Source: Oscillatoria sp. FACHB-1406
Lineage (GTDB): Bacteria > Cyanobacteriota > Cyanobacteriia > Cyanobacteriales > Spirulinaceae
Reading direction: 5' to 3'
Length of the DNA: 64,000 bases
Assembly: GCF_014698145.1 (NCBI RefSeq)
Contig: NZ_JACJSM010000004.1
Coordinates: forward strand, 124,001 to 188,000
Below are positions 30,117 through 37,884 of the stretch, piece after piece (the stretch's first letter is position 1; every line of letters starts with the position of its first letter). The translations under genes were made by a program, and so were the position numbers. The notes under the pieces were generated by a model. The model searched no databases and had not been told where the DNA came from. It saw only the letters and a program-made list of their open reading frames with translations.

Positions 30117-30449
30117 ATGGATCCTGTGATTAAGTTTATCGAACCTTCTGGCATTCTTGACGGCACAAAAGCTGGCGAATTCCGCGAAGAAATCAGCGAT
30201 AGCGTCAAAAATGGTGCAGATACAATTTGTATCGATTTTAAAGATGTAACCTTTATGGATAGTTCTGGGTTAGGGGCGCTAGTCCTAGCCTTAAAAACCG
30301 TTCGGGCGGCGGGAACTAAACTGTATATTTGTTCGATTAACGATCAAATAAAAATGTTGTTTGAACTCACCAGCATGGATCGAGTTTTTGAAATTTTCCC
30401 CAATCGTGCCGCCTTTGACAGCGCTATCCTGTCCCAACAAAACAATTAA
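30117..30449 (+). CDS. STAS-domain anti-sigma factor antagonist
   Basis: A 110-residue SpoIIAA/RsbV-like protein. The phospho-acceptor site is FMDSSGLGALVLAL (Ser49/Ser50). When unphosphorylated such proteins bind an RsbW-type kinase and free its sigma factor or other target. Next to it are the convergent PP2C phosphatase gene (69 bases away) and two RsbW-like kinases, so all parts of a partner-switching circuit are present. Confidence 0.9.
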   Translation: MDPVIKFIEPSGILDGTKAGEFREEISDSVKNGADTICIDFKDVTFMDSSGLGALVLALKTVRAAGTKLYICSINDQIKMLFELTSMDRVFEIFPNRAAFDSAILSQQNN

Positions 30450-30518: not shown

Positions 30519-31655
30519 TCATTCAAAATCAATCTGTACGATCGAGAGATCGTCATCAAAGGAATCGCGCGGATTAACTTCTTTGACTTCCTCAATGAGA
30601 AAGTCGAGATTCCGTTGCAATTTAGCCTGGTAATTTTTTAAGCGATCGACAAAATTGTCATATCCCCAAATTTCGCCATCCGTTTGATTGATTTCATAAA
30701 TTCCATCGCTAAAAATATACAGACTGGAGGCCGGCGAAATTTCACAGCTTTGCTCGACATATTCCACTCCGGGAAACATCCCCGCCGGAAAGCCCGGGGT
30801 TTTGAGAAGCTCGACTTGAAGACCCCCTCCAGCGGGCGAAATCAACACAGCCGGAGGATGCCCGCCACTTGCGTAAATCAGTTGGCGGGTTTTCTGGTTG
30901 TACACGCCGTACCAAATCGTAAAATATTTGTCGTTGCGCTGGGTCATTTGAAACGCATCGTTGAGATTGCGCAGAACGTCGCTGGGCTGGCGATAGTCCA
31001 CTTGCACTAAGCTCTGAGAGCGCAGCAAATTGATCACCGAAAGCGAAGGTAAAGCCGATCGCAACCCGTGTCCGGAAACATCCAGCAAATAAATTGCCAA
31101 ATGTTCCTCATCCAGCCAAAAATAATCAAAACTATCGCCACCGAGACGACTGCACGGCACAAAACGGACATCAATGCGGACGGGCGGTTCCAGCAACGGT
31201 TCGGGCAGAATCGAACGAACGTACTCTGCCGCTTCCAACAGTTCCGCTTCGAGGCGGTGTTTTTGCTGCTGGAGATCGCGACTGAGTTCGTGCTGCCGCA
31301 ATCCCGATCGCACCCGCGCGTTAAGCTCGAACATTTCCACCGGCTTGCAGACAAAATCATCCGCTCCAGCATCCAACCCCTTAACCCGCGATTCTACCGA
31401 ACCCATTGAAGTCAGGAGAATAAAAATCGTGGTGGATAGCTCGGGCGTTGCCTTCACAGCGCGGCAAACCTCGATTCCGCTCAGGCGAGGCATCACCCAA
31501 TCGCAGATAACCAAGGCAGGGCGCATGGCTTTTGCTTTAGCGAGTCCTTCTTCACCATCGCTCGCAATTTCAACTTCGTACCCTTTTTTCGCGAGCGCTC
31601 GCTTGAGCAAAACTTGGATAGCTGGATCGTCATCAATTACCAGGATTTGAGCCAT
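30519..31655 (-). CDS. Response regulator-PP2C (RsbU/SpoIIE-like) phosphatase
   Basis: A 378-residue protein from ATG 31655. Residues 1-125 form a receiver (ILVIDDD, phosphoacceptor Asp52 in VICDWVMP, Lys in VCKPVEM). A coiled-coil linker (DLQQQKHRLEAELLEA) leads to a PP2C/SpoIIE domain with GGDSFDYFWL, LLDVSGHG, ASGGHPPA and FSDGIYE metal-binding motifs. It should dephosphorylate a STAS protein under control of a histidine kinase. The 5' end of this gene is duplicated as a relic at 32340-32424. Confidence 0.92.
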   Translation of the reverse strand: MAQILVIDDDPAIQVLLKRALAKKGYEVEIASDGEEGLAKAKAMRPALVICDWVMPRLSGIEVCRAVKATPELSTTIFILLTSMGSVESRVKGLDAGADDFVCKPVEMFELNARVRSGLRQHELSRDLQQQKHRLEAELLEAAEYVRSILPEPLLEPPVRIDVRFVPCSRLGGDSFDYFWLDEEHLAIYLLDVSGHGLRSALPSLSVINLLRSQSLVQVDYRQPSDVLRNLNDAFQMTQRNDKYFTIWYGVYNQKTRQLIYASGGHPPAVLISPAGGGLQVELLKTPGFPAGMFPGVEYVEQSCEISPASSLYIFSDGIYEINQTDGEIWGYDNFVDRLKNYQAKLQRNLDFLIEEVKEVNPRDSFDDDLSIVQIDFE

Positions 31656-31876
31656 GACCAATGCGTTGTTTGGATGAGGTAAACGGGGGAAAACTGTAAG
31701 GTCTTTTCAATCTCTATAGGGAGAACGTATACAGTAACTCTAAACAATTACTCGCTCGATAGGGGTAATAATAGTGCGTCCTGGTCAATCTTGGGTTAAA
31801 CTGAATTGGTTTGTAAGCCTCGAGCTAATGCAAACCCCTGCGGGATTTCGCCCTTTCTATTGGTCTTATTGACAGG

Positions 31877-32326
31877 TTGCGTTTAGAGCCATTGAACTTC
31901 CCGAAAAAATCTCTTCTAACTGTTCCGACGAAACTAGATGCGTTAAACCAGGTTTTATCGTGGTTTGACAGCAATCGTCAACCCTTAATTCCTCAGAAAG
32001 ATTGGTTGCAGTGTCAACTCGCTCTGGCTGAGGCGTTTACGAATGCGGTTCGTCACGCTCACAAAGGTTTGAGCGAAGATACGCCGATCGACTTAGAGGT
32101 TTTACTGTACCCCACCAGTATAGAACTGCGAATTTGGGATTGCGGTGCGCCATTTGACTTAGAAAACCGGATCGAAACCCTTGACAGACAACCCAACGAG
32201 CACTGCGGAGGCGGACGCGGATTGATCTTGATGGATCGAATTGCCGATCGCCTCAGTTACCGTCGCGTTGACGAACAACGGAATTGTTTGGTGCTGGTTA
32301 AAACATTTGAAATTGAAAACGCTTGA
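31877..32326 (+). CDS. RsbW-like serine kinase / anti-sigma factor (copy 1)
   Basis: A 149-residue GHKL ATPase domain: N-box ALAEAFTNAVRHAHKG, G1 box WDCGAPFDLE, and G2-like GGGRGLILMDRIAD. Proteins of this type hold a partner and phosphorylate a STAS antagonist. No ATG is available upstream in frame; translation probably starts at TTG 31877, and the duplicated copy keeps a TTG at the same place. It is divergent from the receiver-PP2C gene. Confidence 0.87.
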   Translation: MRLEPLNFPKKSLLTVPTKLDALNQVLSWFDSNRQPLIPQKDWLQCQLALAEAFTNAVRHAHKGLSEDTPIDLEVLLYPTSIELRIWDCGAPFDLENRIETLDRQPNEHCGGGRGLILMDRIADRLSYRRVDEQRNCLVLVKTFEIENA

Positions 32327-32657
32327 CAGACGCATGACGATCTCGACTTCGTACCCTTTTTTCGCGATCGCTCGAGCAAAACTTGGAGAGCGGGGTCGTC
32401 ATCAATTACCAGGATTTGAGCCATGACCGATGCGTTGTTTGGATGAGGTAAACGAGGGCAAACTGTAAAGTCTTTTCAATCTCTGTAGGGAGAACGGAAG
32501 CAACAATTCTAAACAATTCCCTGCTCGATAGGGGTAATAATAGTGCGTCTTCACCGAACTTGGGTTAAACTGAATTGGTTTGCAAGCCTCGAGCTGATGC
32601 AAACCGCTAAGCCAATCCCTGCGGGGTTTTGCCCTTCCCACTGGTCTCATCGACAGG
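32327..32657. other. Spacer inside the duplication
   Basis: These 331 bases are the unit B counterpart of the sequence between the PP2C gene and copy 1. They start with the degraded receiver fragment and continue as a leader that matches 31690-31876 closely. Confidence 0.75.
32340..32424 (-). pseudogene. Relic of the receiver-PP2C gene 5' end
   Basis: Reading minus from ATG 32424 gives MAQILVIDDDPA and about sixteen more receiver-like codons, then a four-base deletion relative to the parent gene and loss of similarity. It matches 31573-31655 and is the edge of the tandem duplication. Confidence 0.8.
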
Positions 32658-33104
32658 TTGCCTTTAGAACCATTGAACTTCCCGAAAAAATCTCTTTTAA
32701 CTGTTCCGACGAAACTAGATGCGTTAAGCCAGGTTTTATCGTGGTTTGACAGCAATCGTCAATTAATGCCTCAGAAAGATTGGTTGCAGTGTCAACTGGC
32801 TCTGGCTGAGGCTTTTACGAATGCCGTTCGACACGCTCACAAAGGTTTAAGTGAAGATACGCCGATTGAGTTAGAGGTTTTACTGTATCCCACCAGTATA
32901 GAACTGCGGATTTGGGATCGCGGTGCGCCTTTCGACTTGGAAGGATATATCAAAACCTTGGACGAACAACCCAATTATCACTCAGGGGGTCAACGCGGGT
33001 TGATCCTGATGAAAAGTATTGCCGATCGCCTCAGTTACCGTCGCGTTGACGAACAGCGGAATTGTTTGTTGCTGGTTAAAACGTTTGAAGTTTCCAGCCC
33101 ATGA
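32658..33104 (+). CDS. RsbW-like serine kinase / anti-sigma factor (copy 2)
   Basis: A 148-residue paralogue of the gene at 31877, made by the tandem duplication. The first 100 residues are nearly identical; differences gather around the ATP lid (EGYIKTLDEQPNYHSGG against ENRIETLDRQPNEHCGG) and LMKSIAD against LMDRIAD. That pattern suggests a change of partner or kinetics, although drift is possible. It starts at TTG 32658, and its stop overlaps the start of the rhodanese gene (ATGA). Confidence 0.87.
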   Translation: MPLEPLNFPKKSLLTVPTKLDALSQVLSWFDSNRQLMPQKDWLQCQLALAEAFTNAVRHAHKGLSEDTPIELEVLLYPTSIELRIWDRGAPFDLEGYIKTLDEQPNYHSGGQRGLILMKSIADRLSYRRVDEQRNCLLLVKTFEVSSP

Positions 33105-33925
33105 CTTTCGACCTTATCTCCGCACCAGCGTTAGCCCAGCAGAGCGATCGCGCGTCGGTTGCAATTGTTGACTGTCGCTTCTCTCTAGCCGATCCTCAAC
33201 TCGGACGGCAGCAGTACGATCGCGGCCACATCCCCGGCGCATATTATCTCGACCTCGATCGCGATTTATCCTCCCCAAAAGGCGCGCGCGGCGGTCGCCA
33301 TCCCCTCCCCACACCCGACGCATTAGCCCCAAAACTCGCGGCAATGGGCATCGAGCCAGAAACCCTCGTTGTTGCCTACGATGACTCCAAAGGAGCATTT
33401 GCAGCGCGCTTGTGGTGGTTATTGCGCTACTGGGGTCGCGATCGCGTTGCCTTACTGGACGGCGGTTGGTCGGCTTGGGTTGCAGGCGGCTATCCCATCA
33501 GTACAGAAGTTCCCGCCCCAAAAGCCGGAAATTTCCAGCCTCAAGTGCGAACCGATTGGACGGTGGATCTGGAGGAAGTCAAAGCGCGCAAAGATTTACC
33601 GGGAGTCGTACTCATCGACGCACGAGAAAGCGATCGCTATCGGGGCGATCGCGAACCCATCGATCCCGTCGCCGGACATATCCCCGGTGCAGTTAACCAT
33701 TTCTGGCAAGACGCTTGCGACGATCGCGGCTTTTTTCTTCCCCCCAACCTCCAACAACAGCGTTGGGCGCACCTCGCCCCAGAGGACGAAATCATCGTCT
33801 ATTGCGGCTCGGGCGTAACCGCCTGCGTCAATCTCTGGTCGATGGCCGCCGCCGGTATCTCTGGTGCAAAGCTATATCCCGGCGGCTGGAGCGAGTGGTG
33901 TTCCGCGGAAACTCCCCCCGCTTAG
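33101..33925 (+). CDS. Thiosulfate/3-mercaptopyruvate sulfurtransferase (two rhodanese domains)
   Basis: A 274-residue protein of two rhodanese domains. The first (residues about 10-130) is inactive in type, with DDSKGAFAARLWWLLRYWG. The second carries the catalytic loop YCGSGVTAC with the active Cys near 236. It transfers sulfane sulfur to cyanide or other acceptors in the cytoplasm. The ATG overlaps the preceding stop by four bases, so it is translated with the RsbW-like copy 2, probably an accidental result of the duplication. Confidence 0.92.
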   Translation: MTFDLISAPALAQQSDRASVAIVDCRFSLADPQLGRQQYDRGHIPGAYYLDLDRDLSSPKGARGGRHPLPTPDALAPKLAAMGIEPETLVVAYDDSKGAFAARLWWLLRYWGRDRVALLDGGWSAWVAGGYPISTEVPAPKAGNFQPQVRTDWTVDLEEVKARKDLPGVVLIDARESDRYRGDREPIDPVAGHIPGAVNHFWQDACDDRGFFLPPNLQQQRWAHLAPEDEIIVYCGSGVTACVNLWSMAAAGISGAKLYPGGWSEWCSAETPPA

Positions 33926-34060
33926 AGCGCGAGTCCAGTTGAAAGACTTGACAGAATTTGTTAATTGTGTATTGTGCTTGGAAGAATTTCCGGTGTAGGA
34001 CGGACATTGCCGTTTTCGGCTTAAATCCAAGAACGTAAGGGCGAATAGCATTGAACGTAG

Positions 34061-34079
34061 GGGCGAATGGCATTCGCCC
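34061..34079. repeat. Palindromic spacer repeat (GGGCGAATG type)
   Basis: Same word as at 1929-1947 and 27271-27289. A half copy (GGGCGAATAGCATT) stands just before it. Confidence 0.85.
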
Positions 34080-34155
34080 TAAAGCTCAATCCCGCTCCCC
34101 TGAATCGTCAAATCCCTCTGCCATAATTGAGAATGAATACATCGCGCCCTCCCTT

Positions 34156-34536
34156 ATGTCAGAAAACACCCTTCGTATCGTCACCCAAGACTCAATTAAC
34201 CCTTCCGAAGGTCGAAAAGATCCGACAAGTTCGGCCAGTGCGGGATATTGGGACGACGACGCAGAACCAGCACCCATTGCACCCCGTCGCGGCAATCTCA
34301 CCTTTCATGAAATCGGGGCAGAAAAGCTCGAAAAAGAATTAGTGCGGGTGCTGCGCGTTCTCGATACTTCCCTCAGTCGCGCTATGCAACAAGCGAACCT
34401 GCAATCGGTGGAATTAAATGAAGTCGAAGTCTCCGTTGCGATTTCCGCTAACGGTTCCTTAAGCATTCTTGGATTGGGTGCAGAAATTGGCGGCAGCAGC
34501 AGTATTACATTGAAACTGAAACCCAAGGGACAATAA
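34156..34536 (+). CDS. Pepco/Trypco-like small protein
   Basis: A 126-residue protein from ATG 34156; the open frame continues upstream through the palindrome at 34061 but that part is not protein-like. After a disordered start, a helix (EKELVRVLRVLDTSLSRAMQQ) leads into a strand-rich end VEVSVAISANGSLSILGLG...SSSITLKLKP. This matches the form of the small domains (Pepco, Trypco) known to accompany trypsin-, caspase- and NTPase-based conflict systems. The next gene is a caspase-like fragment, which supports the reading. The family assignment is from pattern alone. Confidence 0.55.
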   Translation: MSENTLRIVTQDSINPSEGRKDPTSSASAGYWDDDAEPAPIAPRRGNLTFHEIGAEKLEKELVRVLRVLDTSLSRAMQQANLQSVELNEVEVSVAISANGSLSILGLGAEIGGSSSITLKLKPKGQ

Positions 34537-34681: not shown

Positions 34682-35089
34682 ATGGCAAAAAATTGGGCAA
34701 TCTGTGTCGGTATTAACCAATACGCTCATCTTCAACCCTTGCGCTACGCACGGGAAGATGCACGCCAAATGCACGAGTTCCTCAAAACTGAAAGCTTCAA
34801 TCGGATTTTGCTATTGTGCGACGGTAATTCAGAACCTAAAACCTATCCCTCTTGTAACAACCTCTGGCACGCTCTCAACAGTATTAAAGACCAAGATAAA
34901 GCAGCCCACGACGGCGATACGTTTAACATTTGGTTCTTCTTTAGCGGTCATGGAATGCGCTTTAATGGCAAAGATTATCTCATGCCAGGGGAGCAACAGA
35001 GAGTTCTTCTCCCCCCTCGCCCAAAATTGGGAGAGGGGGGTCGGGGGGGTGAGGGCTGGGATGACGCTATAACAAACACTCGTGCTTAA
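34682..35089 (+). pseudogene. Truncated caspase-like (C14) peptidase
   Basis: The 135-codon frame opens like an orthocaspase: WAICVGINQYAHLQPLRYAREDARQM, then the catalytic His motif WFFFSGHGMRFNGKDYLMPG. Directly after it the frame runs into a Pro/Gly-rich repeat (RPKLGEGGRGGEG, DNA around 35010-35060) and stops. The region with the catalytic Cys (usually DACR or similar) and everything beyond is missing. Family members are at least 250 residues. The gene is therefore a 5' fragment, probably cut by insertion of repeat sequence. Confidence 0.82.
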
Positions 35090-37150: not shown

Positions 37151-37636
37151 CTATTCTCCGACATCCCTCAGCGTTTGCTCGTACAAAGCGCGATCGACTC
37201 GAAAGCCAGCCTGCTGCATTAAGTTGTCTAAAATCGGCTTGACTGCTGGAATTATTCCTAACATTTTGGCAGCATTCAAAACCCCCAATACTCCTGTAAT
37301 CTTTAATCCATATTGGGCTGCTATTCTTCTTCCCATCCGTTCATCAATGAGCAAACGATCGGCTTTCAATTGAAGGGCTAGCGCGATTGCTTCTGCCTCG
37401 CCCTTGTCTAATTCATTTTCTAAGGTTGCTACGAATTGAAGATCGGTGGGGATTTGTACTTGAAGCCAAGTTGCTGTAAGGTATAAAGAAAGATCGATTC
37501 CAAAATTTTGAAGACAACGGATCTCGCGATCTACCTCGGGTGGGATTATAACTTGTCGATAAATTTGCTGAATTAACTCGAGTTGTCCCACGATTAAGAG
37601 ATTGCTCAGTGGGGAAGTATTGCTGACAACTATCAT
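37151..37636 (-). CDS. DUF3368 PIN-like toxin
   Basis: A 161-residue protein from ATG 37636, which overlaps the antitoxin stop (ATGA); a TTG two codons upstream is less likely. It has the DUF3368 start IVVSNTSPLSNL, a central acidic site DKGEAEAIALAL and LLIDERMGRRIAAQYG, the parts of a PIN-type RNase active site. Such proteins are toxins of type II systems with UPF0175 antitoxins. The arrangement, antitoxin first and overlapping, is standard. Confidence 0.87.
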   Translation of the reverse strand: MIVVSNTSPLSNLLIVGQLELIQQIYRQVIIPPEVDREIRCLQNFGIDLSLYLTATWLQVQIPTDLQFVATLENELDKGEAEAIALALQLKADRLLIDERMGRRIAAQYGLKITGVLGVLNAAKMLGIIPAVKPILDNLMQQAGFRVDRALYEQTLRDVGE

Positions 37637-37884
37637 CGCCAATTATTCTCGCGCAGGCTTTTCATATCCGCCTGATATTCCTCCAATCCATAATGAACGC
37701 AAATGTCCCGATTTGCCAGCAAATGCTGAAATTCAAACTGGTGCATTCGAGCAATTTGTGCTGCTTTTCCCAAGGTAATGCGTTCCTGTTGAAAAAGAAG
37801 AACGGCAATCTCTCGCAATAATTCAGCCTCGGTTAACTCAGCAGTCCGAGCAATATTATCGGGTATATCGATCGAAATTCTCAT
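37633..37884 (-). CDS. UPF0175 family antitoxin
   Basis: An 83-residue protein with the UPF0175 pattern: ISIDIPDNI at the start, a helix ELLREIAVLLFQQERITLGKAAQIARM, and the end HYGLEEYQADM. It presumably binds DNA and neutralises the DUF3368 partner encoded by the overlapping next gene. The ATG at 37884 begins at the conserved strand. Confidence 0.87.
   Translation of the reverse strand: MRISIDIPDNIARTAELTEAELLREIAVLLFQQERITLGKAAQIARMHQFEFQHLLANRDICVHYGLEEYQADMKSLRENNWR

Follow-up and report, generated by a model that had tools for sequence, protein, structure and literature searches.

The DNA analysed here, a stretch of 64,000 nucleotides from the cyanobacterium Oscillatoria sp. FACHB-1406 (contig NZ_JACJSM010000004.1, positions 124,001 to 188,000; hereafter the window), carries the genes of a putative partner-switching module in which an RsbW-like kinase gene has been duplicated in tandem. 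The host genome measures 5.47 Mb in 42 contigs, and homologues of the window proteins are cyanobacterial. The receiver-PP2C phosphatase gene is divergent from and upstream of the kinase genes (A and B), the STAS gene lies beyond it, and a rhodanese gene follows kinase B, its ATG overlapping the kinase B stop codon (ATGA). No sigma factor was found among the 12 window proteins scanned for domains. The features are as follows.

30117 to 30449, plus strand: STAS protein (anti-anti-sigma type) with a DSSG motif in the translation; Pfam STAS 2.8e-21, TIGR00377 (anti-sigma factor antagonist) over cut-off.
30519 to 31661, minus strand: receiver-PP2C (SpoIIE-type) phosphatase, divergent from kinase A; Pfam Response_reg 1.6e-25, SpoIIE 7.6e-42.
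31567 to 32314: unit A of the duplication (PP2C 5′ end, intergenic region, kinase A), from local alignment and repeat blocks.
31892 to 32326, plus strand: kinase A, RsbW-like, from the conserved TTG start (open reading frame from 31877 in the first-pass annotation); HATPase_c_2 2.8e-24.
32213 to 32215, plus strand: kinase A codon GGA, Gly113, first glycine of the G2-box G-R-G, placed by homologue alignment.
32315 to 32339: junction between the units, with the kinase A stop and CATGAC, read from the sequence.
32340 to 33092: unit B, from local alignment.
32340 to 32430, minus strand: remnant of the receiver-PP2C gene (first 30 or so codons), with a 4-base gap, the frame lost and no continuing frame.
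32673 to 33104, plus strand: kinase B, RsbW-like (open reading frame from 32658 in the first-pass annotation); HATPase_c_2 8.2e-23.
32991 to 32993, plus strand: kinase B codon CAA, glutamine replacing the first glycine of G-R-G, placed by homologue alignment.
33101 to 33925, plus strand: rhodanese-type sulfurtransferase with two rhodanese stretches; Pfam Rhodanese 2.2e-34.

The first-pass annotation, made by a model from the sequence alone, had proposed a head-to-tail duplication of about 760 bases, and the direct repeat formed by units A and B bears this out. Of the 737 aligned columns, 659 are identical and 78 mismatched, with 27 gap positions besides, and the repeat blocks lie 769 to 781 bases apart. 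What was duplicated comprises the first 30 or so PP2C codons, the divergent upstream region and the kinase. An assembly artefact or echo was ruled out because the copies are about 10% different. The CATGAC found at the junction is also present at the rhodanese start, which suggests that the copied segment extended to that point; A thus adjoins PP2C on its left, as is usual, and B adjoins the rhodanese gene, found next to the kinase in part of the relatives. The PP2C piece in unit B had been described as decayed. Its frame is indeed lost, but it spans only those first codons: it is a fragment cut by the duplication event and was never a whole gene.

Both kinase genes are intact, as previously annotated. 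Their frames are open and their HATPase_c_2 (Bergerat) domains score 86.0 (A) and 81.2 bits (B) against a Pfam cut-off of 27.4. With residues numbered as in the first-pass kinase A frame (subtract 5 for numbering from the conserved start), E52, N56, D88, G90 and G115 are present in both. We take E52 to be the catalytic glutamate, N56 the N-box asparagine and D88/G90 the Asp-x-Gly of the G1 box. The available parts of two papers (PMC12329169, PMC7340262) support such roles for the catalytic, N-box and G1 residues. More specific profiles stay well below their cut-offs: NF003144 gives 36.5 (A) and 35.7 bits (B) against 145, TIGR01924 35.5 and 34.0 against 155, and spIIAB 21.6 and 19.9 against 135. 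Judged by these profiles, A and B are relatives of Bacillus subtilis-type RsbW and SpoIIAB, not members of either type. The AlphaFold2 models have mean per-residue confidence scores (pLDDT) of 91.3 (A) and 91.1 (B). Among solved structures, SpoIIAB matches the kinase A model best (1th8, E 6.4e-10, template-modelling score 0.71), and RsbW (6m36) matches as well (best row 1.4e-7); identity to the SpoIIAB and RsbW structures listed is only 13-17%.

The annotated TTG starts held up as codons, but their position was probably set five codons too early. The column five codons further on is TTG in 71 of 85 rows (83 putative orthologue rows plus A and B), while TTG makes up 284 of the 1,387 leucine codons further on in those genes. 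In at least two loci (L009 and L027) no in-frame ATG, GTG or TTG lies between the preceding stop and this TTG. The starts are thus most likely the TTG codons at 31892 (A) and 32673 (B). Many orthologue rows have AAAGG- or GAGG-like bases 5′ of the conserved TTG. The codon is perhaps kept as a weak start that holds the kinase level low.

The module of STAS, receiver-PP2C and kinase is common in cyanobacteria. At 80 related loci, a divergent upstream receiver-PP2C gene is found in 70, with a STAS gene too in 62 and a downstream rhodanese gene as well in 18; none of the 80 has two kinases within the fetched stretch (some stretches stop at a contig end). The nine orthologues from the family, seen in short stretches, have PP2C in nine cases, rhodanese in six and STAS in one, and again none has a second kinase. 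The orthologue set comprised 83 rows once 20 locus ids had been removed, which took out 22 rows that belonged to paralogue loci, were truncated or, in one case, duplicated another; seven of its loci (L011, L050, L065, L076, L078, L079 and L083) have no adjoining PP2C gene. In a tree of 82 rows, from which near-identical or truncated rows were left out, A and B form one clade with a support of 99 in the Shimodaira-Hasegawa-like approximate likelihood ratio test (SH-aLRT); the single-copy kinases of G005 and G006 adjoin it (fork support 87). A and B are sister copies and, so far as seen, the duplication is confined to the source genome, the only one to represent its genus in the comparison. Rows read by eye gave no other close kinase pair among the matches listed in 176 genomes (135 with a match), nor in a second set of 116 (48 with a match, 56 rows). 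At the corresponding locus of one family genome (G004; L103 / L113), the kinase matches from residue 68 on only, suggesting that its N-terminal half is broken or misassembled. Comparison of the upstream region with relatives gave no clear conserved block.

The differences between A and B are unevenly distributed. They had been said to gather around the ATP lid and the following helix, and both tests applied agree. The densest 80 columns (32154-32237) hold 21 differences (permutation scan, p 0.0015), and 10 of the 19 amino-acid differences fall within residues 88-127 (40 codons), compared with just 4 for residues 1-87, a stretch of 86 codons (Fisher p 0.0015). At codon positions 1, 2 and 3, the differences number 2, 1 and 14 in codons 1-90 and 10, 5 and 11 in codons 91-123. 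The N-terminal 90 or so codons are strongly conserved in amino acids, whereas the lid, the G2 box and the next helix have diverged. The nucleotide aligner placed two balancing 4-base gaps in the lid, where the codon alignment reads substitutions; over the kinase the latter has a single length change of one whole codon. B is one residue shorter than A. The rest of the unit has one 4-base and one 12-base gap.

Synonymous changes are also denser in the lid region (p 0.05), so partial gene conversion between A and B may have homogenised the remainder; the changes counted here are those made after any last conversion. Acquisition of the lid by conversion from another kinase was considered and set aside, no clear donor having been found. 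Polarity depends in part on the outgroup. With G005, derived lid states occur in A (Y108E, S110C) and in B (R98Y, G113Q). Across six outgroups, the numbers of A-derived and B-derived changes are 5/4, 6/4, 1/5, 3/4, 1/4 and 1/4, and each outgroup leaves 8 to 14 undecided. I38M and G113Q alone come out as derived in B whichever of the six is used.

Residue 113 belongs to the G-x-G of the G2 box, which reads GRG in A and QRG in B, the last glycine being kept. On ATP binding, which the first-pass annotation took as one mark separating a working copy from a drifting one, the outcome is mixed: one conserved glycine is gone from B, and the five residues listed above are kept. Glycine occupies the column in 82 of the 83 putative orthologue rows; among all homologues (105 rows, two of them gapped at 113) it does so in 99 of 103. 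Lys takes its place in L050, and Glu in L081 and in the second member of a tandem kinase pair from another genome of the family, G002; L098 and L105 being the same gene pair, the three rows with glutamate count as two genes. In a further set of 35 rows, family kinases of several kinds including A and B twice each, inspection by eye found the glycine absent only in B and in the second G002 copy. According to the available part of PMC12329169, the main chain of G106-G109 hydrogen-bonds ATP in a three-dimensional model of Slr1861 from Synechocystis. Matched by motif, the counterpart here would be G112-G115.

In the structure model of kinase A, beta1 spans residues 5-12 and alpha1 residues 15-27 (conserved-start numbering), and together they hold one A/B change, N24S (first-pass numbering). 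In RsbW, beta1 and alpha1 form the dimer and helices alpha1-alpha3 contact RsbV (PMC7340262, available part). The lid block 101-110 is less certain (pLDDT 60 in A, 70 in B). The helix after it runs from 109 to 117 in A and from 105 to 116 in B, each in its own conserved-start numbering, and so begins about three residues earlier in B at equivalent positions. There is a hint, and only that, that in the B model this helix covers the G2 residues.

Comparison of substitution rates, which the first-pass annotation had proposed, was carried out on the codon alignment. The pairwise ratio of nonsynonymous to synonymous rates (omega) is 0.30 and differs from 1 (twice the log-likelihood difference, 2dlnL, 13.8). 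In a branch model that gives both copies the same age, as expected for two copies within one genome, omega is 0.20 for A and 0.34 for B. A neutral B is rejected under this model both for the gene as a whole (2dlnL 9.45) and for codons 1-90 (12.71), which drive the whole-gene result. When B was simulated as fully neutral, about 40 amino-acid changes resulted against the 19 observed, a rough guide given that site differences were ignored.

We propose that a common Rsb-type switch (STAS protein, receiver-PP2C and RsbW-like kinase) had its kinase and upstream region duplicated head to tail in the ancestry of the source cyanobacterium, probably after the split from the nearest genera compared. Both copies would have been retained by selection. 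The catalytic Glu/Asn box lies in the conserved N-terminal 90 or so codons, as do the strand and the helix that appear to form the dimer, and B would be a working but altered second subunit. It would still dimerise, probably with A too because the presumed dimer surface is nearly unchanged. It would close its lid on ATP, and meet the STAS protein, differently from A. As a weaker kinase or as partner of A in a mixed dimer, B could then shift the balance between phosphorylated and free STAS protein. Our tentative preference, at a little short of an even chance, is that B has been kept as a second subunit with an altered lid and works alongside A in one switch. The narrower version, by which B is a possibly kinase-poor RsbW subunit that tunes the switch in mixed dimers with A, we regard as unlikely.

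Several results weigh against B being a retained, altered subunit. The A-B heterodimer is something we infer. Most lid columns are variable among single-copy orthologues. L050 and L081, with Lys and Glu at position 113, have no second kinase within the fetched stretch, so the glutamine of B need not alter function. A search for sigma-70-like promoters gave 0 matches against a mean of 1.4 in shuffled sequence. The rate tests, too, are less uniform than the figures above. The pairwise omega cannot be told apart from 0.5, which would be expected with one copy dead and one frozen (likelihood ratio 2.55). Neutrality of B is not rejected on codons 91 to the end under equal ages (1.45), nor on the whole gene when branch lengths are free (1.15), and on residues 1-95 the free model rejects it only marginally (4.29). 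On the rival explanation of drift, B would be a spare copy of recent origin in which constraint is being lost, first in the lid and then beyond it; its frame would still be open because little time has passed since the duplication and because the rhodanese start lies within the kinase B stop codon. The lid half, not told apart from neutral, and the free-branch result on the whole gene fit such a copy. Loss of the near-invariant G2 glycine and the occurrence of a second kinase in one genome only, with none in the fetched stretches of the 80 related loci or the nine family orthologues, also fit a drifting duplicate. Under the equal-age model, however, a neutral B is rejected; the rhodanese overlap would guard the frame, not the amino acids; and length changes amount to one whole codon in the kinases, against 4-base and 12-base gaps in the rest of the unit. 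The equal-age model was run after the free-branch result was known. We nonetheless give it more weight because the free-branch model is poorly determined on the halves (omega 3.8 for A, with a branch of 0.003); on the whole gene, that model does not reject neutrality of A either (2.45). Drift is a serious contender, held to be doubtful.

Less probable still, to the point of being rather improbable, is a gain in dosage alone: A and B would each act as a full kinase in one switch, the lid changes would amount to ordinary variation and the benefit would be more kinase. The catalytic glutamate, the N-box asparagine, the G1 aspartate and glycine and the last G2 glycine are identical in A and B, the variability of the lid among orthologues suits this explanation, and the conserved TTG of the family suggests low expression. 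In Synechocystis the kinase to STAS ratio is described as critical (PMC12329169), and in B. subtilis the behaviour of sigma-B is shaped by relative synthesis (PMC5207722), both from the available parts of the papers. Clustering of the differences beyond chance, and a change in a column that is glycine in all but one of the putative orthologue rows, argue against dosage. Very unlikely, and compatible with B as an altered second subunit, is a split in specificity whereby the two kinases would each act on STAS proteins or targets of their own elsewhere in the genome, for which speak the number of STAS matches in the genome and the A/B changes at 120 and 121, on the post-lid helix that, by alignment, bears the presumed counterpart of the RsbV-contacting Tyr118 of RsbW.

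The locus does not by itself reveal the closed circuit suggested by the first-pass annotation, with two kinases set against a single STAS protein and a single phosphatase. Profile matches in the genome number 13 for PF13581 (9 over cut-off), 7 for STAS (all over cut-off) and 12 for SpoIIE (11 over the Pfam cut-off). With five strong kinase matches (E 6.4e-17 or better, frames of 146-192 residues), seven STAS matches and eleven SpoIIE matches, partners may be shared. Nor does the wiring look as unusual as had been supposed, given the multi-kinase switches described in Synechocystis (PMC12329169) and Mycobacterium smegmatis (PMC7693655); these and the papers below are cited from their available parts. 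In Synechocystis, Slr1861 and PmgA are both said to phosphorylate one STAS protein, Ssr1600. The Slr1861/PmgA/Ssr1600/SigC system thus resembles the present one in having cyanobacterial RsbW-like kinases, two on one STAS protein (a likeness of protein type); it differs in that slr1861 lies in the icfG operon, and a tandem kinase pair is not mentioned in the part of PMC12329169 available. In M. smegmatis roles are divided among three RsbW homologues (PMC7693655; the division also in PMC10950880). RsbW3 binds RsbW1 as an antagonist, and the authors assume inactivation by a heterodimer (PMC7693655). Unlike A and B, these genes occupy separate loci without a tandem pair, and in vitro only RsbW2 phosphorylated RsfB (PMC7693655, PMC10950880). 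In Nostoc punctiforme, a filamentous cyanobacterium, HmpU-HmpV-HmpW form a phosphatase/STAS/kinase switch, similar by type, in which the STAS protein itself may be the output; the available parts of PMC6495340 and PMC8256260 do not mention kinase duplication. The classical Rsb/Spo systems (RsbU-RsbV-RsbW, SpoIIE-SpoIIAA-SpoIIAB) have the same three domain types at one locus and a matching kinase fold; the window differs by its receiver-PP2C phosphatase, divergent gene order and two tandem kinases. No tandem RsbW pair in a cyanobacterium was found in the literature searched by titles and abstract openings, subscription papers being mostly outside it.

A second, independent tandem RsbW-like pair, in the family genome G002 (L110:7957-9150), came from a search of 13 genomes. 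Its copies are 65/140 identical and not sisters in the tree, and the second has GERG in the G2 box. The pair resembles A and B in being adjacent RsbW-like genes of which the second is without the G2 glycine; it differs in lying at another locus, beside a STAS-sugar transferase fusion. An RsbW-like kinase beside a STAS-domain gene is present at L110:7957-10222 and, in the source genome itself, at L106:5953-7418 (contig C7); the like kinase in other family genomes has a STAS match nearby. In L110, where the fusion was examined, STAS domain and bacterial sugar transferase (PF02397) form one protein; this suggests polysaccharide synthesis, and not a sigma factor, as the likely target.

Farther along the window, a 22-base repeat in two copies (34031-34074) lies between the rhodanese gene and a Pepco-domain gene (34051-34533). 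A caspase-like gene (34682-35089) follows; it matches only family positions 2-98 of 233, ends past a C-/G-rich stretch and looks truncated. On the minus strand, UPF0175 and DUF3368 genes with overlapping ends (37151-37884) form what is presumably a toxin-antitoxin-like arrangement.

Additional switch kinases as such are already known, and if B only drifts the pair is an ordinary tandem duplicate. If B works with an altered lid, the locus would show, at an early stage and with its history still legible, the splitting of a partner-switch kinase in two, in which the ATP lid changed and the dimer and the catalytic core stayed as they were. The origin of extra RsbW paralogues, such as those of mycobacteria, could then be tested directly. 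Were B, more narrowly, a possibly kinase-poor subunit in mixed dimers with A, loss of the same G2 glycine in the second copy of the unrelated G002 pair would mark a repeated route by which RsbW duplicates become regulatory subunits.

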